Assembly: GCF_019844075.1 (NCBI RefSeq)
Contig: NZ_CP081964.1
Location: 2,170,001-2,234,000, forward strand
DNA: 64,000 nt
Direction: 5' to 3'
From: Curtobacterium sp. TC1
GTDB taxonomy: Bacteria > Actinomycetota > Actinomycetes > Actinomycetales > Microbacteriaceae
How positions within the stretch are numbered: the stretch's first letter is position 1; each line of letters starts with the position of its first letter. The notes beneath the pieces are model-generated. The model was not told the DNA's origin. It was given only the letters and a program-made list of their open reading frames with translations, and ran no database searches. Shown piece after piece: positions 22,643 through 43,686 of this stretch. A program made the translations under genes and the position numbers.

Positions 22643-23770
22643 GTGTTCTTGAAGACCTTCGGGTGGTCACTCGTGATCACCGTCCTCGCCCTCGCCACGG
22701 CGCTGATCTACGGCAGCTGGAGCGCAGTGGTCATCACGCTGATCCTCGGCGTGCTCGAGATCAGCCTCAGCTTCGACAACGCGGTGGTCAACGCCCGCAT
22801 CCTCGAGCGGATGAGCCCGTTCTGGCAGAAGATGTTCCTGACGGTCGGCATCGTCATCGCCGTGTTCGGCATGCGCGTGGTCTTCCCGCTGCTCATCGTG
22901 GCCGTCACGGCACACCTCAGCCCGGTCGAGTCGATCCAGCTCGCGCTCGAGAAGGGCCCCATCGACGAGCCGGGCACCTACGCCTACCTGCTCCACGAGG
23001 CGCACCCGCAGATCGCCGCCTTCGGTGGGATGTTCCTGCTCATGATCTTCCTCGACTTCATGTTCGAGGACCGCGACATCCTCTGGCTCAAGTGGCTCGA
23101 GCGCCCGCTGCACTTCCTCGGCCGTCTGCCGATGGTGAACGTCGTGGTCGCCCTCGCACTCCTCGCCCTGTTCGGCGTCACGTCGGGCGACCACCAGGCG
23201 ATCGTCCTCGTCTCCGGGATCGCCGGGCTGGTGACGTACTTCCTCGTCACGGGCCTCGGCGGCCTGTTCGACGTCGGCGACCCGGACGACGACGGCAACT
23301 CGTTCGAGAGCGCCGACGAGATGGACGCCGAAGCGGGTCGCATCGTCTCGAAGCGCCGGCTCGGCCACGTGACCGGTCGTGCCGCGTTCCTGCTCTTCCT
23401 GTACCTCGAGGTCATCGACGCGTCGTTCTCCTTCGACGGGGTCATCGGCGCGTTCGCCATCACCGCCGACCCGATCATCATCGCGCTCGGTCTCGGGCTG
23501 ATCGGCGCGATGTTCGTCCGGTCGCTCACGGTGTTCTTCGTGCGACAGGGCACGCTCGACGAGTTCGAGTACCTCGACCACGGCGCGCACTGGGCCATCG
23601 GTGCGCTCGCCGTGATCCTGCTCGTCACCATCACGACCGAGGTCAACGAGATCGTGACCGGGCTCATCGGCGTCGTCTTCATCCTCGCGGCCTTCGTGTC
23701 GTCGATCGTCCGCAACCGTCGCAAGGCCGACCACCCCACTCCCGCGGAGCCGGCGATGCTCTCGCGCTGA
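22643..23770 (+). CDS. DUF475/TerC-like integral membrane protein
   Basis: A 375-residue polytopic membrane protein with about 9-10 hydrophobic helices. Family-defining acidic intramembrane motifs are EISLSFDNAVVNA near residues 33-45 and EVIDASFSFDGVIGA near 256-270, comparable to the TerC ion-site motifs; the loop FDVGDPDDDGNSFES is strongly acidic. It heads the Ter operon. TerC-family proteins are linked to metal-ion (Mn2+) export and the tellurite-resistance phenotype; the substrate here is inference. GTG start with AGGAGA nine bases upstream; 54 bp separate it from the first terD. Confidence 0.87.
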   Translation: MFLKTFGWSLVITVLALATALIYGSWSAVVITLILGVLEISLSFDNAVVNARILERMSPFWQKMFLTVGIVIAVFGMRVVFPLLIVAVTAHLSPVESIQLALEKGPIDEPGTYAYLLHEAHPQIAAFGGMFLLMIFLDFMFEDRDILWLKWLERPLHFLGRLPMVNVVVALALLALFGVTSGDHQAIVLVSGIAGLVTYFLVTGLGGLFDVGDPDDDGNSFESADEMDAEAGRIVSKRRLGHVTGRAAFLLFLYLEVIDASFSFDGVIGAFAITADPIIIALGLGLIGAMFVRSLTVFFVRQGTLDEFEYLDHGAHWAIGALAVILLVTITTEVNEIVTGLIGVVFILAAFVSSIVRNRRKADHPTPAEPAMLSR

Positions 23771-23824
23771 CCCGGTCCGACACACGAAACCCCCACTCCA
23801 GCACGCCACGAAAGGGTCACCGCC

Positions 23825-24412
23825 ATGGGTCTCAGCCTCCAGAAGGGTCAGTCGCTCTCACTGACGAAACAGGACGGCAGCGCGCTGTCCCGCGTCCGCC
23901 TCGCGCTCGGCTGGGACGCCGTCGCGACGAAGCGGGGGCTGTTCGGCGGCCGCAAGGAGGCCGAGGTCGACCTCGACGCGTCGGCGATCTTCTTCGACGT
24001 GCAGGGCGCGCCCATCGACTACGTCTGGTTCAACCAGCTGCGCAGCAAGGACGGCTCGGCCCAGCACACCGGTGACAACCTCACGGGTGCCGGGGACGGT
24101 GACGACGAGACGATCCGCATCGACCTGTCGGCGGTCCACGCCTCGGTCGCGCAGATCGTCTTCGTGATCAGCAGCTACAGCCGCCAGACGTTCGACACGG
24201 TGCAGAACGCCTTCTGCCGGGTGGTCGACGACTCGACGGCCGGTACCCCCGAGGTCGCGCGCTACCAGTTGACCGACTCCGGGCCGCACACCGCGATGGT
24301 CATGGCCAAGGTGTCCCGCGTCGGGACCGGATGGTCCTTCAGCGCCATCGGTGAGCGCGCGAACGGCCGGACCGTGCAGGACCTCGTCGCACCGGCGTCC
24401 GCCGCGCTCTGA
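23825..24412 (+). CDS. TerD family protein, copy 1
   Basis: Calcium-binding TerD-fold stress protein, 195 residues, cytoplasmic. The two acidic Ca2+-site motifs are present: DLDASA at 49-54 and DGDDE at 91-95, with WFNQLRSKDGS between. It differs from copies 2 and 3 by an insertion GLFGGRKEAE after residue 38 and by a divergent C-terminus (WSFSAIGERANG instead of [10 protein letters not shown]). ATG start at 23825 with AAAGGG upstream. It lies in the Ter operon 20 bp before copy 2. Confidence 0.93.
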   Translation: MGLSLQKGQSLSLTKQDGSALSRVRLALGWDAVATKRGLFGGRKEAEVDLDASAIFFDVQGAPIDYVWFNQLRSKDGSAQHTGDNLTGAGDGDDETIRIDLSAVHASVAQIVFVISSYSRQTFDTVQNAFCRVVDDSTAGTPEVARYQLTDSGPHTAMVMAKVSRVGTGWSFSAIGERANGRTVQDLVAPASAAL

Positions 24413-24432
24413 GCGGGAAGGACACACCGCAC

Positions 24433-25014
24433 ATGGCGACCCTCTCCCTCTCCAAGGGCAACAACCTCTCCCTGACCAAGACGGACCCGAGCCTCCGACG
24501 GGCCATGATCGGCCTCGGCTGGGATCCCCGCACCACCGCGGGTGAGCAGTTCGACCTCGACGCCTCGGCGCTGTTGGTCGGTGCGAACGGCCGCGTGCGG
24601 TCGAACGACGACTTCATCTTCTACAACCAGCTGCAGTCGGTCGACGGTTCCGTCGTCCACCAGGGCGACAACCGCACGGGCGACGGCGACGGTGACGACG
24701 AACAGATCCTCATCGACCTCGACGCCGTCGCTCCGGACGTCGAACGCGTCGTGATCGTCGTCACGATCGACCAGGCGGAGGCCCGCCACCAGAACTTCGG
24801 ACAGGTGCGTGGCGCGTTCTGCCGGGTCGTCAACGACGAGACCGCGAACGAGGTCGTGCGGTTCGACCTGACCGAGGACGCCGCATCCGAGACCGGCATG
24901 ATCTTCTCGGAGATCTACCGGTACAACGGGGAGTGGAAGTTCCGCGCCGTCGGCCAGGGGTACGCTTCCGGCCTCCGCGGCGTGGCGACCGACTACGGCG
25001 TCGTCCTCGACTGA
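24433..25014 (+). CDS. TerD family protein, copy 2
   Basis: 193-residue TerD-fold protein. Ca2+ motifs DLDASA at 41-46 and DGDDE at 86-90 are intact, and the C-terminus has the canonical [16 protein letters not shown]. It is the closest relative of copy 3 (shared [10 protein letters not shown] start and FIFYNQ core), indicating tandem duplication. ATG start with GGAAGGA upstream. Role in tolerance to tellurite, oxidants or phage follows from the family; in this organism it is inferred. Confidence 0.94.
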
Positions 25015-25042
25015 CCGTCCCCACCGACTGAAAGGCACGACC

Positions 25043-25621
25043 ATGGCAGGACTGACCCTCACCAAGGGCAACAACCTCTCGCTCACGAAGACCAGCCCCG
25101 GTCTGACGGTCGCCACCGTCGGTCTCGGCTGGGACCCCCGCACGACCACGGGCGAGCAGTTCGACCTGGACGCCTCGGCACTGCTGCTGAGCGCGTCGGG
25201 CAAGGTGCGCTCGGACGCCGACTTCATCTTCTACAACCAGCCGCGCAGCGCCGACGGATCGGTCGAGCACAAGGGCGACAACCGTACCGGCCAGGGTGAC
25301 GGCGACGACGAGCAGATCAGCATCGACCTGACGTCGCTGCCCGCCGACGTGGACCGCGTGGTCATCGTCGTGTCGATCGACCAGGGCGAGGCCCGCGGTC
25401 AGAACTTCGGCCAGGTCCGCAGCGCGTACTCGCGGGTGCTCGACCAGGACGGCACCGAGATCGTGCGGTTCGACCTCTCCGAGGACGCCGCCCCCGAGAC
25501 GGCGATGATCTTCTCGGAGATCTACCGGAACGGTGCCGAGTGGAAGTTCCGCGCCGTCGGGCAGGGCTACACCACGGGCCTCGCCGGGATCGCCACCGAC
25601 TTCGGCATCCAGCTCGGCTGA
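25043..25621 (+). CDS. TerD family protein, copy 3
   Basis: 192-residue TerD-fold protein with intact DLDASA (41-46) and DGDDE (86-90) motifs and the C-terminal [15 protein letters not shown]. Nearly the same length and layout as copy 2. ATG at 25043 with GAAAGG upstream. It lies 28 bp after copy 2 and 43 bp before telA in the same operon. Confidence 0.94.
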
Positions 25622-25664
25622 CCCGCCGACGCCGACGACCGCACCCAGACCAGGAGAACCAGCC

Positions 25665-26885
25665 ATGCCCGGACCGCTCGCTCCGCCGGAACCGACCGAC
25701 CCGACCGAGGACGCCCTCGTCCTCCGCCCAGCAGCATCCGCCGAGGTCGTGACCCCGGACGACGCCCCGGGCATGGTGCCGGTCGACCCGGAGCGGCAGT
25801 CCCAGATCGCCGCCCAGGCGCGGGAGTTCGTCGACGAGGTCGCCTCGCTCGACCCGCGTTCGCCGGCGTTCACCGAGAAGGTCGACGGCATCACCTCGAT
25901 CGGCGGCGTCGAGATCGCCCGGTCCGGCGGGTTCTCGTCACGGATGCTCGAGCGTTCGCAGACGTCGGTCGCCGGTGCCAAGCGGACCGGTGACAGCGCG
26001 CAGGTCAAGGTCGCGACGACGCTCGGTGACCTGCGTTCCACCGTCGAGGACCTGACGCCGAACCAGGCCGACCTCAGCACCGGTCGCAAGATCCTCGGGC
26101 TCATCCCCGGCGGCAACAAGCTGGCGAAGTACTTCCAGAAGTACGAGTCGGCGCAGACGCAGCTCGACCACATCATCAAGTCGCTCATGGCCGGCCAGGA
26201 CGAGCTCCGCAAGGACAACGCCACCCTGGCGGACGAGAAGGTCCAGCTGTGGGAGACCATGCAGCAGCTGAGCGAGTACGCCGTCTTCGCGAAGGCGCTC
26301 GACGCGGCGACGGTGACGAAGGTCGAGTCCCTGCGGAACGGCGGTCGCGTCGACGAAGCGCAGAAGCTCGAGTCCGACGTCCTCTTCCCGGTGCGCCAGC
26401 GCCACCAGGACATCCTCACGCAGCTCGCCGTCTCGGTGCAGGGCTACCTCGCGATGGACCTGGTCCGGAAGAACAACACCGAGCTCATCAAGGGTGTCGA
26501 GCGTGCGCGGACCACGACCATCGCGGCGCTCCGGACTGCCGTCGTGGTCGCCCAGGCGCTCGCGAACCAGCGGATGGTGCTCGACCAGATCGACGCCGTG
26601 AACAACACCACGAACGCGATGATCCTGCAGACCAGCGAGATGCTGCGCGATCAGACCACGCGGATCCACCAGCAGGCGACCAACTCCGGCGTCAGCGTCG
26701 AGACGCTGGAGCGTGCGTTCGACAACGTCTTCCAGACGATGGACGCGATCGACTCGTTCCGCTCCGAAGCCGCACAGAACATGGCCTCGACGGTGACGGC
26801 GCTCGAGTCCGGCATCCAGCGTGCGAAGCCCTACCTGGAGCGCGCGCGACAGTCCGGCGACGACCCGCGCTCGATCAGCCGATGA
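25665..26885 (+). CDS. telA: toxic anion resistance protein TelA family
   Basis: Cytoplasmic, almost wholly alpha-helical protein of 406 residues, the TelA/YceH family that accompanies TerD. Conserved features seen are the VPVDPERQSQI start of the domain near residue 40, GRKILGLIPGGNKLAKYFQKYESAQTQLD near 140-168, and a long coiled coil ending in SGIQRAKPYLERA. The ATG at 25665 has AGGAGA nine bases upstream. The biochemical role of TelA is not established; association with Ter complexes at the membrane is known from the family. Confidence 0.92.
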   Translation: MPGPLAPPEPTDPTEDALVLRPAASAEVVTPDDAPGMVPVDPERQSQIAAQAREFVDEVASLDPRSPAFTEKVDGITSIGGVEIARSGGFSSRMLERSQTSVAGAKRTGDSAQVKVATTLGDLRSTVEDLTPNQADLSTGRKILGLIPGGNKLAKYFQKYESAQTQLDHIIKSLMAGQDELRKDNATLADEKVQLWETMQQLSEYAVFAKALDAATVTKVESLRNGGRVDEAQKLESDVLFPVRQRHQDILTQLAVSVQGYLAMDLVRKNNTELIKGVERARTTTIAALRTAVVVAQALANQRMVLDQIDAVNNTTNAMILQTSEMLRDQTTRIHQQATNSGVSVETLERAFDNVFQTMDAIDSFRSEAAQNMASTVTALESGIQRAKPYLERARQSGDDPRSISR

Positions 26886-26903
26886 CCCGAACGGCCGACC
26901 ACG

Positions 26904-27464
26904 GTGCGTGACCGTCTGCGCGCGCTGTTCGGCCGCGACGACGATCGCGAACCGACGGCCACCGATGCCACACCGGCGTCGGTGGCTGCCGCCGCTGCTG
27001 CGCGCATCGACGTCCGCGGAGCCGGCGGGCAGTCGGACGACGCCGCGGCTGCGGCGGGGCTCGACGACCTCCGCGCCTTCGTCCGGGCCGCCGGGGCCGA
27101 GCTGCCCACGGTCGTGTCGTCACGGATCCGACACGTCGAGGACCTGCTCCGCGAGGCGGCCGGCACGGTGGTGGCACGCGGGGCCTCGACCGAACAGCGG
27201 TTCCTCTTCCAGGCCATCGTGGACGACTACCTGCCCACCCCGGTCCGGACCTACCGGTCCCTGCCGGACGACGACCGCACCGAGGACAGCGCGGCGACCC
27301 GCACACTCACCGAACAGCTCGACGTCGTCGCCGAGACCGTCGACGACATGCACGAACAGATCAGGAGCGGAGCCATCGCAGAGCTCTCCACCCACGGACG
27401 GTTCCTCCGTGACCGTCTCGGCGACGGCGACCCGGGTCTCCGACTCCGCGGAGCGGACTCGTGA
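26904..27464 (+). CDS. unrecognised Ter-operon protein, 186 aa
   Basis: Not recognised. A GTG start 18 bp after telA gives an acidic, Ala-rich, mostly helical protein with no membrane segment. Residues about 55-160 look like a folded helical unit: EDLLREAAG, FQAIVDDYLPTPVRTYRSLP, then TLTEQLDVVAETVDDMHEQIRSG. The C-terminus carries STHGRFLRDRLGDGD. Its position between telA and a terD, with a four-base overlap into the latter, makes a role with TelA/TerD likely, for example as a helical adaptor. TerB was considered but no TerB metal-binding acidic motif was found. Confidence 0.75.
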   Translation: MRDRLRALFGRDDDREPTATDATPASVAAAAAARIDVRGAGGQSDDAAAAAGLDDLRAFVRAAGAELPTVVSSRIRHVEDLLREAAGTVVARGASTEQRFLFQAIVDDYLPTPVRTYRSLPDDDRTEDSAATRTLTEQLDVVAETVDDMHEQIRSGAIAELSTHGRFLRDRLGDGDPGLRLRGADS

Positions 27465-28021
27465 CCGGGCGGCTCGTGCCGGGCGCGAACGCGGCGCTGA
27501 CGGCCGAGAACCCCGGTCTGGACGCGGTCGTCGTGGGCATCGCCTGGGACCAGATCGCGAGCCGGGGCCCGTCCGCCGAACTCGTCCCGGTGGCGATCGT
27601 CTGCGGCGACGACGGCAAGGTGCTCTCCGACGAGGACCTGGTGTTCTTCAACCAGCTCGACGGCGCCGACGCGTCGGTGCGGTTCCTCGACGACTCCGAC
27701 GACGAGGAGATCGACGTCGACCTCGTCAGTGTGCCGGACGCCGTCGACAAGATCGTCTTCGCCGTCTACCTGGACCCGGACCCGCGCTCCCCTCGCGACC
27801 TCGGCTCGGTCCGCTCGATGACCATCCGGGTCGGATCGTCCGACGGCCGTGAACTCGTCCGCTTCGACCTGCCCTCCGATCGGAACCACACCATCGACGC
27901 GGTGATCCTCGGCGAGCTGTACCGCCACCGGTCCGAGTGGAAGTTCCGCGCGGTCGGCCAGGGCTACACGACGGGGTTGACGGGGCTGCGCACCGACCAC
28001 GGCATCGGCCGCGCCCGATGA
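27461..28021 (+). CDS. divergent TerD family protein, copy 4
   Basis: 186-residue TerD-fold protein. The overall pattern is kept: NPGLDAVVVGIAWD, VFFNQLDGAD, and C-terminal [19 protein letters not shown]. The first calcium motif is lost: DLDASA is replaced by ELVPVA at 40-45, while an acidic cluster DDSDDEE remains at 77-83. It may therefore bind metal differently or act as a scaffold. GTG start overlaps the upstream stop (GTGA) and the stop overlaps the next ATG (ATGA), so translation is coupled on both sides. Confidence 0.88.
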   Translation: MTGRLVPGANAALTAENPGLDAVVVGIAWDQIASRGPSAELVPVAIVCGDDGKVLSDEDLVFFNQLDGADASVRFLDDSDDEEIDVDLVSVPDAVDKIVFAVYLDPDPRSPRDLGSVRSMTIRVGSSDGRELVRFDLPSDRNHTIDAVILGELYRHRSEWKFRAVGQGYTTGLTGLRTDHGIGRAR

Positions 28022-28806: not shown

Positions 28807-29973
28807 ATGCGCCACTTCGCCCACCTCGACGGACAGGACCAACTGTTCCTGCACCCGCCGGAGGACGTCCGCCGCGACAGCGACCAGGGCCTGCGGGCGG
28901 TCGCCCTCGGCGCCACGCTCTACACGCCGGCGATCCGCCCGGACCTGGTGCACGACGTGCGGCGCCAGACCGCGCTCGGCGCCGGGTCGATCGTGCTCTG
29001 CCTCGAGGACTCCGTCGCGGACGCCGACCTCCCCGTCGCCGAGACCCACGTCGAGGACGCCCTGCGCGCCCTGCAGGAGGACGCGGACGACGCCACGCTC
29101 CCCCAGCTCTTCCTGCGGGTCCGCGACCCCGGACACCTCCGACGACTGACCGACCGCTTCGGCGACCGTCTGCTCGACGTGCTCACGGGCTTCGTCCTGC
29201 CGAAGTTCGAGGACTCCCCGGACAGCGGATCCCGCTACTTCGACGTGCTCGACGACCTGAACGCCGGCCGTCCCGAACACCGCCGCCTGCTGGTCATGCC
29301 GATCCTCGAGTCACCGTCGATCATGCACCGCGAGACCCGCACCGAGGCGCTCGCCGCCCTCCGCGACCTGCTCCTGGCGCGCCGCCGCGACGTCCTGGCG
29401 CTGCGCATCGGCGCCACGGACCTGTCGAGCGTGTTCGGCCTGCGGCGCCCGTCCCACCTGACCGCGTACGAGGTGCAGGTGCTCGCCTCGGTCATCGGTG
29501 ACGTGGTCAACGTCCTCGGCCGTGCCCGCGACGGCTTCGTCGTCAGCGGCCCGGTGTGGGAGCACTACCCCGACTCCGACCGCGTGTTCCGCACCCAGCT
29601 GCGGGCGACGCCGTTCGAGGTCGCCGGCGACCTCGCGCTCCGCCGTCAGCTCTTGCTCGAGGGCTTCGACGGCCTGCTCCGCGAGGTCACGCTCGACCGC
29701 GCGAACGGACTGACCGGCAAGACCGTCATCCACCCCCGGCACGTGCCCCTGGTGCACGCGATGTCGGTGGTCAGCGACGAGGAGTTCTCGGACGCGACCG
29801 ACGTCCTCGCGAACGTCGACGGTGGTGTCGCCGCCTCGCGCTACGGCAACAAGATGAACGAGATGAAACCGCACCACGACTGGGCCGAACGCACGGTCCT
29901 GCGCGCCCGGGCGTTCGGTGTCGCCAACCCCGACGTGACCTTCGTCGACGTGCTCGAACGGAGCCTGCCGTGA
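28807..29973 (+). CDS. HpcH/HpaI aldolase-citrate lyase family protein (CitE-like)
   Basis: TIM-barrel lyase of the CitE-like family, 388 residues, found in Ter-linked biosynthetic modules that are proposed to make a nucleoside-like metabolite. Visible motifs are LCLEDSVADADLP (metal/phosphate site Glu-Asp), PILESP and LRIGATDLSSVFGLRR (CoA or substrate loop), and TGKTVIHPRHV near residue 305. ATG start three bases after the previous gene; its stop overlaps the GTG of the PRTase fusion (GTGA). The reaction is unknown; C-C lyase or aldolase chemistry is inferred from the fold. Confidence 0.87.
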   Translation: MRHFAHLDGQDQLFLHPPEDVRRDSDQGLRAVALGATLYTPAIRPDLVHDVRRQTALGAGSIVLCLEDSVADADLPVAETHVEDALRALQEDADDATLPQLFLRVRDPGHLRRLTDRFGDRLLDVLTGFVLPKFEDSPDSGSRYFDVLDDLNAGRPEHRRLLVMPILESPSIMHRETRTEALAALRDLLLARRRDVLALRIGATDLSSVFGLRRPSHLTAYEVQVLASVIGDVVNVLGRARDGFVVSGPVWEHYPDSDRVFRTQLRATPFEVAGDLALRRQLLLEGFDGLLREVTLDRANGLTGKTVIHPRHVPLVHAMSVVSDEEFSDATDVLANVDGGVAASRYGNKMNEMKPHHDWAERTVLRARAFGVANPDVTFVDVLERSLP

Positions 29974-32657
29974 CCGACGCCCCGCCCTCCCCCGCCGACC
30001 TCGGTGTCGCCCTCGCCGACGCCCCGGCGACGGCGGCCGCTCCGTCCGTGCCGCTCGGCGCCCTCGCCCGGATCGCACTGCGTCGGAACCCGCAGCGAGC
30101 GCACCTGCTCGTCTCCACAGTGCTCGCGAAGCACCTGCCCACCGTCCCCGCGGTCGCCCTGGCGGCGGGCGAGGCCCTGGCCGCACGGGTCGCCGACGTC
30201 CTCGACGGCGGGTCGCGCTGGGACACCACCGCCGCCGCCCGGCTCGAGCGCGTCGTCCGCGCAGCCGCGGCCGCCGACGGACCGGACCGCGCGACGGCCC
30301 CCGGCGCGGGCTCCGGGGGCGAGGACCACGGCACCCTCGCGGTGCACCACGCCGCGACCACCCTCCGGACGGACCTCGCGGCGCTGCGCCCCGAGCACCC
30401 GGACGCGCTCGTCCTGGGCTTCGCCGAGACGGCGACCGCGCTCGGCGCGATGGTCGCCGAGGCGCTCGGAGCCGCGTACCTGCACTCCACCCGGCACGAC
30501 CCGCCGGGCGCGGTGCCCGCCGCCGGGTTCGACGAGGCCCACTCCCACGCGACCGCACACCGCCTGCTGCCCACCGACCCCGACTGGCTGCCCGGTGCGG
30601 GCACGGTGGTGCTCGTCGACGACGAGCTGAGCACCGGTGCCACCGCGCGCGCGACGATCCGCGCACTGCACGCCCTCGCCCCGCAGCGGCGCTGGGTGGT
30701 CGCCGGTCTCATCGACCTCCGCTCTGCGGCGGACGTCGCGGCGACCGAGGCCCTCGCGGCCGAGATCGGGACGCCCGTCACGGTGGTCGCGCTCGGCCGC
30801 GGCGACGCCGTGCTGCCGGCCGACCTCGCCCGCACCGCCTCCGCGGTCGTCGCGGCCCACGCGCTCGCACCGACGGACGCACGGCACCGGTCCGAGGCGC
30901 CGCGGACCGAGACCGGTGGGGTGTCGGACGGGAGGCCCGTGGCGGCCCCGACCCGCGCCTCCCGTCCGACCACGGTCACCATCGTGACCGCACCGCCGAC
31001 CGCCGTCGACCGTGCCGGCACGCCGGCACGCCGCGTCCGGCTCCCCCGCACCGACGTCGAGGGGATCGCACGCGACGTCGTCGCGGCGCTCGGAGACCCC
31101 GGCGACGCTCCGCGTCGCGTCCTGGTGCTCGGCACCGAGGAGCACATGCACACGCCGCTCGTGGTCGCAGACGCGATCCGGCGGCAGTCCGACGCCGACG
31201 TGCGGTTCTCGACCACCACGAGGTCCCCGGTCGCCGTCCTCGACGACCCGGCCTGGCCGATCCGATCCGGGGTCCGCTTCCGGTCGCACGACGCCACCGT
31301 CGACGGACCCGGTGAACGGTTCGCGTACAACGTGCACGGCTTCGACGCGATCGTGGTCCTGCCCGAACCCGGGACCGAACGCAGCCTGCTCGACGGACCG
31401 GACGGCCTCCTCGCCGCCCTGCTGACCGCGGCGCCCACCGTCGTCCTCGTGAGCGCGCCGCTCGAGCTGCACGACGGCTCCCGCGTCCCGCGGCCGCTCA
31501 CCGGGCCGTCCTTCGGCTCGTACGAACCCGACGACGTCACGTGGCTGCTCCAGGACCTGGCCGGCGCGGCACTCGAGGCCGACACGGCGGACCGCGAGCG
31601 GGCCATCCAGCTCGAGGGCGCGAACTACGCCGAGTCGCTGCCCGTCGAGTACGTCCCGTCGGACGAGTACGAGGCGCTCTACCGCGACGCCCTCGACCGG
31701 TCCGCTGCACGCATCGCCGAGGCCGTGGGGATCGTCACCGAGCTGATCCTGCGCGGCCGGTCACAGCCGGTGCTCGTGTCCCTGGCACGGGCGGGGACCC
31801 CGATCGGCATCCTGGTGCGCCGCTGGGCCGAGGTACACCACGGCTTGCGCCTCCCCCACTACACGGCGAGCATTGTGCGCGGCGTCGGCGTCGACGAGAC
31901 CGCGCTCCGCTGGCTCGCAGCCCACCACGACCCGAGCCAGGTCGTCTTCGTCGACGGGTGGACGGGCAAGGGCGCCATCACCCGCGAGCTCACCGAGGCC
32001 CTGGACCGCTTCGCGGCCTCGGACGGTGTCCGTTTCCCCGACGACCTCGCCGTCCTGGCAGACCCCGCGGGCTGCACGCCCCTGCACGGCACCCGTGACG
32101 ACTACCTCGTCCCGTCGGCCTGTCTCAACTCGACGGTGTCCGGGCTGGTGTCCCGCACCGTGCGCAACCCCACCCTGACCCCCGACGGCACCTTCCACGG
32201 CGCCAAGCAGTACCGCGACCTCGCACCCCGCGACCACTCCCGCGCCTTCGTCGCCGCGATCGCCGAGCAGTTCGACGCCGTCCGCGACCGCGTCGACGCG
32301 GTGGTGGCCACCCGTGCAACCGATGGCTCGCAGGAGGTCGACTGGCGTGGCATGCGCACCGTCGAGGCGATCGGGTCGGAGTTCGGCATCGACGACCTGC
32401 ACCTCGTGAAGCCGGGTGTGGGCGAGACCACGCGCGTGCTGCTCCGCCGGGTGCCGTGGCAGGTGCTCGTCCGCGACCCGGACGACCTCGACATCGCCCA
32501 CGTCGTCGCCCTCGCACGGGAGCGCGGCGTCCCCGTCCTGACCCGGCCGGACCTGGCCTACAGCTGCGTCGGGCTCATCCACCCCCTCGGCAGCCGGGTG
32601 GCCGGTTCCACGGTACGGACCGCTGTCGCCGACGCCGCCACGGGTGGTGCGGCGTGA
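29970..32657 (+). CDS. fused PRTase_2-TRSP-StiP-PELOTA protein, 895 aa
   Basis: A very long protein joining units that are usually two genes. Residues about 28-300 form a phosphoribosyltransferase-like domain with PRPP loop VVLVDDELSTGAT at 213-225. Residues about 355-510 match the TRSP domain, with the literal TRSP motif at 417-420. Residues about 512-780 match the StiP/second PRTase-like domain (SFGSYEPDDVTWLL at 514-527; loop VVFVDGWTGKG at 658-668). The final 95 residues look like a PELOTA RNA-binding domain (HLVKPGVGETTRVLLRRVPW). The frame is continuous with no stop, GTG at 29970. Known family role: base-sugar chemistry in a Ter-linked metabolite pathway; the product is unknown. Confidence 0.85.
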   Translation: MTDAPPSPADLGVALADAPATAAAPSVPLGALARIALRRNPQRAHLLVSTVLAKHLPTVPAVALAAGEALAARVADVLDGGSRWDTTAAARLERVVRAAAAADGPDRATAPGAGSGGEDHGTLAVHHAATTLRTDLAALRPEHPDALVLGFAETATALGAMVAEALGAAYLHSTRHDPPGAVPAAGFDEAHSHATAHRLLPTDPDWLPGAGTVVLVDDELSTGATARATIRALHALAPQRRWVVAGLIDLRSAADVAATEALAAEIGTPVTVVALGRGDAVLPADLARTASAVVAAHALAPTDARHRSEAPRTETGGVSDGRPVAAPTRASRPTTVTIVTAPPTAVDRAGTPARRVRLPRTDVEGIARDVVAALGDPGDAPRRVLVLGTEEHMHTPLVVADAIRRQSDADVRFSTTTRSPVAVLDDPAWPIRSGVRFRSHDATVDGPGERFAYNVHGFDAIVVLPEPGTERSLLDGPDGLLAALLTAAPTVVLVSAPLELHDGSRVPRPLTGPSFGSYEPDDVTWLLQDLAGAALEADTADRERAIQLEGANYAESLPVEYVPSDEYEALYRDALDRSAARIAEAVGIVTELILRGRSQPVLVSLARAGTPIGILVRRWAEVHHGLRLPHYTASIVRGVGVDETALRWLAAHHDPSQVVFVDGWTGKGAITRELTEALDRFAASDGVRFPDDLAVLADPAGCTPLHGTRDDYLVPSACLNSTVSGLVSRTVRNPTLTPDGTFHGAKQYRDLAPRDHSRAFVAAIAEQFDAVRDRVDAVVATRATDGSQEVDWRGMRTVEAIGSEFGIDDLHLVKPGVGETTRVLLRRVPWQVLVRDPDDLDIAHVVALARERGVPVLTRPDLAYSCVGLIHPLGSRVAGSTVRTAVADAATGGAA

Positions 32658-33478
32658 CCGCGCTGGTCGGCTTCGACCTGGACCGCACGCTCGTCTACTC
32701 GGCCGCGGCACTGCTGCTCGACGGACCGGACGAGACCGCTCCGGCGCTCGTCGTGACCGAGGTCTACCGGCACGCGCCGCTGTCGTTCATGACCCGGGCC
32801 GCCGACACCGCCCTCGCCGCACTCGCCGAGCGCGCCGCGGTCGTGCCCGTCACCACCCGGACGGTCGCGCAGTACCGGCGCATCCGGCTCCCGCTGCCTG
32901 CCGCCGGATGGGCCGTCACGACGAACGGCGCGGTCCTGCTCCACGACGGCAGGCCCGACGACGACTGGACGGCTGCGCTCCGGGACGAGATCGACGCGAC
33001 CTCGGCTCCGCTCGAGACGGCCGAGGCGCTCGTGCTCGCCGGGCTCCCCGCGGCGGCACTGCTCCGCAACCACCGCGCCGAGGACCTCTTCGTCTACGCC
33101 GTGCTCGAGCGGACGGAACTCCCGGACCACGCGGTGTCCGACCTGGCGGCGACCCTCGCCGAGCAGGGTTGGACGGTGTCGGTGCAGGGTCGGAAGCTGT
33201 ACGCGGTCCCGGTCGCGATCCGGAAGGAGCGGGCCCTGGCGGCCGTCGCGGAGCGGCTCGGCGCCACCCGGGTCGTCGCGGCAGGCGACTCACTGCTCGA
33301 TCGCGACATGCTCGCCGCAGCCGACGTCGCGATCCGGCCGGCCCACGGTGAGCTGCACGCGGCGGGGTGGACGGCGCCGCACCTGCTCGTCACGCGGTCG
33401 TCAGGGGTCCTGGCCGGCGAGGAGATCATCGGCCTCGCCGCACGTGCCGTCGCCGACGTACCGGTACCCGCCAGCTGA
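32654..33478 (+). CDS. HAD superfamily hydrolase of the Ter module
   Basis: Phosphatase of the haloacid dehalogenase fold, 274 residues. Motif I FDLDRTLVYS at about 7-16 has the Asp nucleophile and the general acid Asp two residues on; motif II Thr is in VPVTTRT; the Lys is in AIRKERALAAVAERLG; motif IV GDSLLDRDML supplies the acidic pair. It is the last gene of the Ter operon, with a GTG overlapping the PRTase-fusion stop. It probably dephosphorylates an intermediate of the same pathway. Confidence 0.87.
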   Translation: MTALVGFDLDRTLVYSAAALLLDGPDETAPALVVTEVYRHAPLSFMTRAADTALAALAERAAVVPVTTRTVAQYRRIRLPLPAAGWAVTTNGAVLLHDGRPDDDWTAALRDEIDATSAPLETAEALVLAGLPAAALLRNHRAEDLFVYAVLERTELPDHAVSDLAATLAEQGWTVSVQGRKLYAVPVAIRKERALAAVAERLGATRVVAAGDSLLDRDMLAAADVAIRPAHGELHAAGWTAPHLLVTRSSGVLAGEEIIGLAARAVADVPVPAS

Positions 33479-33535: not shown

Positions 33536-33546
33536 CACCGAGGATG

Positions 33547-33580
33547 AACGGGCGGCCCTCCCAAAGGAGGACCGCCCGTT
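33547..33580 (-). terminator. hairpin after rpmE2
   Basis: A 9-bp stem AACGGGCGG/CCGCCCGTT, one mismatch, 5 further pairs and a 4-base loop, 20 nt past the L31 stop. It can also end the Ter operon reading from the left. No strong T tract. Confidence 0.7.
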
Positions 33581-43638: not shown

Positions 43639-43686
43639 GACGGACGGGAGGCCCGGTGCCAGCTGGCACCGGGCCTCCCGTCCGTC
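43639..43686. terminator. 48-bp perfect palindrome, SUF operon terminator
   Basis: Perfect inverted repeat centred on AGCT (43661-43664), 12 bp from the last SUF-operon stop. Same core GGTGCCAGCTGGCACC and AGGAGGC/GGGAGGC arms as the element at 1675-1720. Confidence 0.75.

Follow-up and report, generated by a model that had tools for sequence, protein, structure and literature searches.

We examined a gene that joins four domains of the Ter-linked biosynthetic module, PRTase_2, TRSP, StiP and PELOTA_1, in the genome of Curtobacterium sp. TC1, where it lies in a stretch of 64,000 nucleotides, hereafter the window (contig NZ_CP081964.1, positions 2,170,001 to 2,234,000 of the forward strand). 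The module was reportedly defined by Anantharaman and others in 2012, with a nucleoside-like metabolite as the modelled product. As an earlier note on this DNA had claimed, the plus-strand frame at 29970-32657 is uninterrupted over 895 residues and holds all four domains (Table 1); its GTG start shares 4 bases with the stop of the preceding C-C bond lyase gene. A domain search, which that note had proposed as a check, placed every domain above its curated Pfam cut-off, the StiP half included. The N half thus has the composition and order of the Ter-module PRTase_2-TRSP class (PF15609 and PF12500) and the C half those of the StiP/PRTase_1-PELOTA_1 class (PF11202 and PF15608). The PELOTA-like C-terminal end described earlier is recovered as PELOTA_1 at residues 792-871 (114.2 bits), and the loop at residues 213-225 and the TRSP motif at 417-420 lie where they had been placed, while the second loop extends to residue 670 and not 668. 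In an NCBIfam scan, the sole match of the protein was PyrR, below its cut-off. We read the fusion protein as an unremarkable representative of a four-domain form of the two Ter-linked phosphoribosyltransferases (PRTases) that is widespread in actinobacteria, and we consider the explanation developed below, taken as a whole, fairly probable.

Table 1. Position of the fusion gene, its domains and motifs, and the surrounding genes in the window (PRPP, phosphoribosyl pyrophosphate; HAD, haloacid dehalogenase; REP, repetitive extragenic palindromic).
Feature	Position	Strand	Basis or remark
Fusion gene PRTase_2-TRSP-StiP-PELOTA_1, 895 aa, GTG start	29970..32657	+	open frame, no internal stop
PRTase_2 domain, aa 32-278	30063..30803	+	Pfam 192.3 bits, cut-off 28.8
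N-half PRPP loop VVLVDDELSTGAT, aa 213-225	30606..30644	+	motif position and conservation
REP-like palindrome, 42 bases, in frame in the PRTase_2/TRSP linker	30926..30967	+	genome copy count
TRSP domain, aa 357-474	31038..31391	+	Pfam 80.1 bits, cut-off 25
TRSP motif, aa 417-420	31218..31229	+	motif position
StiP domain (older Pfam name PRTase_1), aa 516-764	31515..32261	+	Pfam 318.2 bits, cut-off 28.7
Pyrophosphate-loop-like SLARAGTPIG, aa 604-613	31779..31808	+	motif position and conservation
C-half PRPP-loop-like VVFVDGWTGKGAI, aa 658-670	31941..31979	+	motif position and conservation
Codon of C718, better-placed protease-cysteine candidate	32121..32123	+	alignment of 181 StiP sequences
PELOTA_1 domain (L7Ae-like), aa 792-871, K-P...E-x-T-R motif	32343..32582	+	Pfam 114.2 bits, cut-off 25
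C-C bond lyase gene (PF15617, HpcH/citrate lyase type)	28807..29973	+	Pfam; 4-base overlap into fusion gene
HAD-type phosphatase gene	32654..33478	+	S6PP 23.3 bits, cut-off 20.3; 4-base overlap (GTGA) with fusion-gene end
Upstream Ter genes	22643..28021	+	DUF475/TerC-like, three TerD, TelA, Pfam-less gene, fourth TerD
DUF475/TerC-like membrane protein gene	start 22643	+	
Three TerD genes	23825-25621	+	
TelA gene	frame listed from 25533 (start approximate)	+	
186-residue protein	26904-27464	+	no Pfam match
Fourth TerD gene	start 27461	+	
Protein of about 261 residues	28018-28803	+	no NCBIfam match; longer 27937 frame without Pfam match

We then looked at the folds of the two halves. Structure prediction (pTM 0.70), also proposed earlier as a check, gave PRTase folds for both. 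The N-half model most resembles adenine phosphoribosyltransferase (APRT), and this half carries the further hallmark of type I phosphoribosyltransferases, a PRPP loop with two vicinal acids and TG. The StiP model shares the PRTase fold of that group, and VIA-align placed it closest to CriT, the glycan phosphoribosyltransferase (gPRT) of the capsule polymerase Bcs3, 2 Z units above the next protein, with only PyrR, HGPRT or their kin in the rows under Bcs3. VIA-align re-ranks Foldseek's own hits, and CriT emerged from this second look. We take the likeness of StiP to a CriT-type gPRT as one of fold only, by which StiP may work like such an enzyme, and we make no claim that it is a member. Together with the conserved key residues of the PRPP loops, the two models support two transfer steps of phosphoribosyl type, where the earlier note had spoken of glycosyl transfer; the protein would carry out one with each half.

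Residue conservation was counted over 181 StiP sequences (178 distinct, Streptomyces-heavy). In the pyrophosphate-type loop, S604, R607, A608, G609, P611 and G613 are invariant (181/181), as are D662, W664, G666, K667 and G668 of the PRPP-type loop and, outside the loops, H630, S634, D642, D698, D711, S724, G725, R729 and H743. In the tail, K814, E819, T821 and R822 are invariant in the 180/181 sequences reaching PELOTA_1. A profile of the C half gave a weak match to L7Ae structures (best E 0.0076), with KPGVGETTRVLLRR aligned to the L7Ae segment KKGTNETTKAVERS; RNA binding by the PELOTA_1 domain is plausible. A report citing the 2012 study describes, in the portion of it that we cite, a Ter PRTase linked to a PELOTA or L7Ae domain (PMC5571608).

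The same counts bear on the name of the StiP half, which current NCBI and Pfam entries call a cysteine protease, a name echoed from annotation in the cited part of one paper. Two cysteines could serve such an activity: C718 is kept in 176/181 sequences and C702 in 175/181, beside the two histidines H630 and H743 of every sequence. C718 is replaced in five, by alanine in a fused Curtobacterium protein (L002), by methionine in Rhizobium (L176) and by isoleucine in phage ME3 (L177) and in both gammaproteobacterial plasmid copies examined, from P. putida (L179) and Raoultella (L180), and C702 is replaced in six. Three of the five (L176, L179 and L180) carry a cysteine elsewhere, in an ADPCG stretch; this stretch is missing from the ME3 and actinobacterial rows, and ME3 has a cysteine at none of these positions. 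A 9-row alignment likewise contained no invariant cysteine column of the kind expected for a papain-type protease. Because C718 and C702 vary, as a catalytic cysteine is not expected to do, and because the models match PRTase-type structures, we rejected the protease as the leading reading of StiP and regard it as highly improbable. No papain-type fold was found among the listed structure matches, which is no proof, as VIA-align only re-ranks Foldseek hits, and the literature searched, in the parts available, gave no demonstration of StiP protease activity. The Pfam entry of StiP appears as PRTase_1 in a 2026 paper (PMC13109261).

The StiP half is worth following as a CriT-like transferase rather than as a protease. 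In the explanation that we favour, the C half would probably be responsible for the second of two phosphoribosyl transfers, possibly to a hydroxyl group; the L7Ae-like domain may hold RNA or position an acceptor; and the predicted HAD phosphatase, the product of the next gene, would then take off the 5-phosphate. This removal is the predicted role of the HAD-type gene, which overlaps the fusion gene by 4 bases and has relatives in 77/79 loci. As an unlikely but more specific candidate, we tentatively propose that StiP-PELOTA_1 is a PRPP-dependent O-phosphoribosyltransferase whose acceptor hydroxyl belongs to a ribonucleoside or to an RNA bound by the tail, with the HAD enzyme again trimming the 5-phosphate. 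A transfer of this type is known from yeast: the 2'-OH of A64 in the initiator tRNA receives ribosyl phosphate from PRPP through Rit1.

Several observations weigh against the favoured explanation. CriT is missing from Foldseek's own top 50 for either model, and its match to the C half has 7% identity. Of the 13 Foldseek hits of the C half at E <= 0.001, 12 are PyrR and one is HGPRT (TM-scores over the query, 0.21-0.24). A profile search of the PDB linked StiP to no known PRTase, giving L7Ae-type and chance hits only; a profile-profile comparison of StiP with the PRTase_2 alignment gave nothing; and in a Pfam scan of 34 StiP members, one matched Pribosyltran, at E 0.14. Position 663 of the StiP PRPP loop, that of the second acid, is glycine in 179/181 sequences. 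Type I phosphoribosyltransferases usually, though not always, have two vicinal acids in this loop: in CriT, according to the part of the source cited, the two acids sit on different loops. Finally, the profile support for the HAD assignment of the gene at 32654..33478 is weak (its NCBIfam HAD-IIB match lies under the cut-off), and its product is no more than a putative relative of CrpP, the phosphatase that accompanies CriT.

It is a distinct possibility that both halves are classic N-glycosidic phosphoribosyltransferases acting on free base-like compounds, StiP giving no O-linked product and sharing with CriT a fold and nothing else. The APRT-like N half, the ranking of PyrR and HGPRT first by Foldseek, the remaining VIA-align rows and the citing papers, whose cited passages have the Ter module make a nucleoside or nucleotide derivative, all fit such chemistry; the Z-score lead of CriT does not, and neither does the phosphatase-type gene that adjoins StiP in actinobacteria, phage ME3 and the Pseudomonas putida plasmid, as CrpP adjoins CriT. 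In an improbable third explanation, the C half is no enzyme: as in PyrR, its PRTase fold would serve a regulator that binds RNA, here to attenuate or stabilise the transcripts of the Ter genes. PyrR chains are indeed its best Foldseek hits and come second in VIA-align, and the tail weakly resembles L7Ae, but the invariance of the listed residues in both substrate loops goes beyond the needs of binding alone, and the lyase and HAD relatives found in 77/79 loci each are expected of a biosynthetic step.

If StiP-PELOTA_1 does transfer phosphoribose onto a hydroxyl, the Ter module would make O-ribosylated nucleosides or O-ribosyl RNA marks as a stress or phage signal, and many records named cysteine protease StiP would be misnamed. 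Papers on the module, as far as the portions cited here go, still give its product as a prediction only, and nowhere in the corresponding portions of the literature searched is StiP called an O-ribosyltransferase. The predicted PRTase fold, with an O-ribosyl transferase as its nearest match, the invariant loop residues, the cysteines that can be replaced and the phosphatase gene coupled to the fusion together point to a concrete reaction that can be assayed. The one-chain form delivers the two transferases as a unit, which simplifies reconstitution.

In itself, the fusion is unremarkable. The earlier note had presented it as a departure from the usual two proteins; this holds for many lineages but not for the sampled Streptomyces, where 72/74 named loci are fused, nor for Curtobacterium, where the family was found in 13/36 sampled genomes (our own included) and was fused in 13/13. 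Three further Curtobacterium genomes lack the family. In a database search with the whole protein, 7995 candidates of 0.55-1.75 times the query length were scored and 3930 of them reached E <= 1e-10; every one of the 120 matches listed has all four Pfam domains. At the class level, StiP was found in 93/394 genomes (92 over the cut-off) and TRSP in 92. Among the 91 genomes over the cut-off other than our own, 70 were examined, 36 of them fused and 34 split, and for the remaining 21, open-frame lengths alone suggest a fused form in 14 (genus g50) and a split one in 7 (family f36). At the family level, StiP is present in 11/199 genomes, with our own and one of another genus fused and nine split. 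Custom profiles built from the database-search proteins classed 178 loci, Streptomyces-heavy, as 128 fused, 48 split and two without a TRSP hit on the locus. Of 72,556 plasmid records, 2566 also have matches to the StiP half; coverage beyond Actinomycetota consisted of single plasmid and phage records only. Both forms thus exist among relatives, a point raised for checking earlier, and the fusion, far from unusual, is widespread and recurrent across Actinomycetes. The four-domain architecture is not new, one source having named it; the parts available of the literature searched, which did not extend to the 2012 module-defining study, hold no description of the four-domain fusion. The chance that a sequencing or assembly error fused two genes, which the earlier note had named as grounds for refutation, is negligible, as independent genomes carry the identical fusion (all 13 carriers in the genus sample) and the Pfam domains are intact and all in one frame.

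We also asked how the one-chain form arose. In split pairs, the start of the StiP frame, taken as the start codon nearest the stop, overlaps the upstream stop by 4 bases in 40/48 cases (ATGA, GTGA or TTGA), the exceptions being L054, L118, L128, L144, L146, L161, L176 and L178. The overlap puts the two frames one position out of phase, so that a minor change of frame close to the junction would be enough to fuse them. A StiP-PELOTA tree of 97 rows requires nine fused/split changes, at least five of them forced by starred branches; a random draw for it kept 8 of 72 fused Streptomyces loci among L060-L134 and 8 of 25 genus g50 loci, the split L118 and L128 and also L082 were kept, and L001, a copy of the window, was omitted. 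In a tree of 42 rows, hand-picked for spread after the first tree, eight changes are required (8-9 over bootstrap trees), at least four of them forced, and a single group of all fused rows was rejected (approximately unbiased test, p-AU 3.6e-86, not from a pre-named test). Change counts alone cannot give the direction; since the 4-base phase recurs in split lineages, we infer that the split state is ancestral and that fusion was derived from it some 6-7 times. The distance between TRSP and StiP has a median of 111 bases (69-372) in fused and 189.5 bases (83-359) in split loci, the ranges overlapping widely.

Two loci may record the reverse step: Streptomyces rimosus and S. monomycini (L118 and L128), placed within an otherwise fused Streptomyces clade, have an in-frame TGA between TRSP and StiP and a start codon 6 bases on, which is probably a later gene fission. 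The divergent fused copy L002, with alanine at position 718, sits on a long branch outside the Curtobacterium clade and is possibly a separate acquisition or a relaxed copy.

The earlier note had taken the fusion to suggest substrate channelling between the two active sites. We consider this rather doubtful as the reason for the one-chain form. Fusion does recur, and in Bcs3 a multi-enzyme chain forms a reaction chamber, according to the part of the source cited, but fused and split forms occur side by side within single genera (g100, g66 and g70) and a reversion seems to have taken place in S. rimosus and S. monomycini, so that the single chain is not essential, and the split form is mostly coupled already by its 4-base overlap. 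Given that overlap in 40/48 split pairs, equal dosage and co-assembly account for the recurrent fusion as well as channelling does. The one-chain form would have arisen repeatedly, through minor frame shifts in a pair of translationally coupled genes, and may mainly set equal amounts and proximity of two cooperating enzymes.

The genes upstream of the fusion identify the neighbourhood as a Ter module. In a survey of 79 loci over 8 kb, 69 of them from Streptomyces, a C-C lyase relative and an HAD relative were each found in 77, and the commonest order was lyase, PRTase_2-TRSP(-)StiP-PELOTA and HAD on a single strand. Relatives of the 26904-27464 and 28018-28803 proteins were found in 5/79 loci each, including those of Curtobacterium (L055) and Subtercola (L059). 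None of the genes tested between 20161 and 33478 has an ATP-grasp domain; the Pseudomonas putida (L179) and Raoultella (L180) plasmids have an ATP-grasp gene upstream of the PRTase pair and the gene that lies within it. This intervening gene is annotated as trehalose phosphatase in L179, as hypothetical in L180 and as haloacid dehalogenase in phage ME3 (L177). The Rhizobium plasmid L176 has PRTase_2-TRSP, StiP and an HAD-like gene, and no gene named as Ter protein or C-C lyase in the 17 kb examined, in an incomplete plasmid gene table; two PRTases and HAD may hence be the minimal core of the module. PADLOC returned zero matches for six module proteins, and the promoter and terminator scans did no better than shuffles. 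Directly after the HAD gene, an inverted repeat at 33546-33580 (GAACGGGCGGCCCTCC...GGAGGACCGCCCGTTC), also found near the HAD gene in other Curtobacterium loci, could be the operon terminator; it has no T run and was not flagged by the terminator scan.

The linker between PRTase_2 and TRSP contains a REP-like palindrome with the arms GGACGGGAGGC ... GCCTCCCGTCC, which occurs in the window at 30926-30967 and 43642-43683 and in 97 copies in the 4.16-Mb genome (reversed control, 0). At the corresponding linker site, it has intact arms in L009, L013, L014, L055, L056 and L057, is decayed in L011 and L058, and was not seen in L002 and L012.

Among known systems, CriT of the Haemophilus influenzae b capsule polymerase Bcs3 is a gPRT that works with the HAD phosphatase CrpP; it has helical bundles and the acids D680 and E818, according to the part of the source cited, whereas StiP ends in an L7Ae-like tail, and a sugar acceptor is not known for it. 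From the APRT and PyrR phosphoribosyltransferases, the fusion protein differs by its TRSP domain and by the fusion itself. The split Ter pair, PRTase_2-TRSP and StiP-PELOTA_1, as on a Tsukamurella plasmid (L175), in Rhizobium (L176) and in Pseudomonas putida (L179), consists of the same kinds of protein in one module, but in two chains; the plasmids of Pseudomonas and Raoultella, like phage ME3, have an intervening gene between the two, annotated as a phosphatase in two of these three cases. The closest likeness is to the four-domain proteins of Streptomyces, Arthrobacter, Frondihabitans, Subtercola and other Curtobacterium, which have the same domains and the same module genes, with best BLASTP identities of 45-97% among the matches listed; the differences from them are at the species level only, such as the REP-like palindrome in the linker here and in several Curtobacterium loci.

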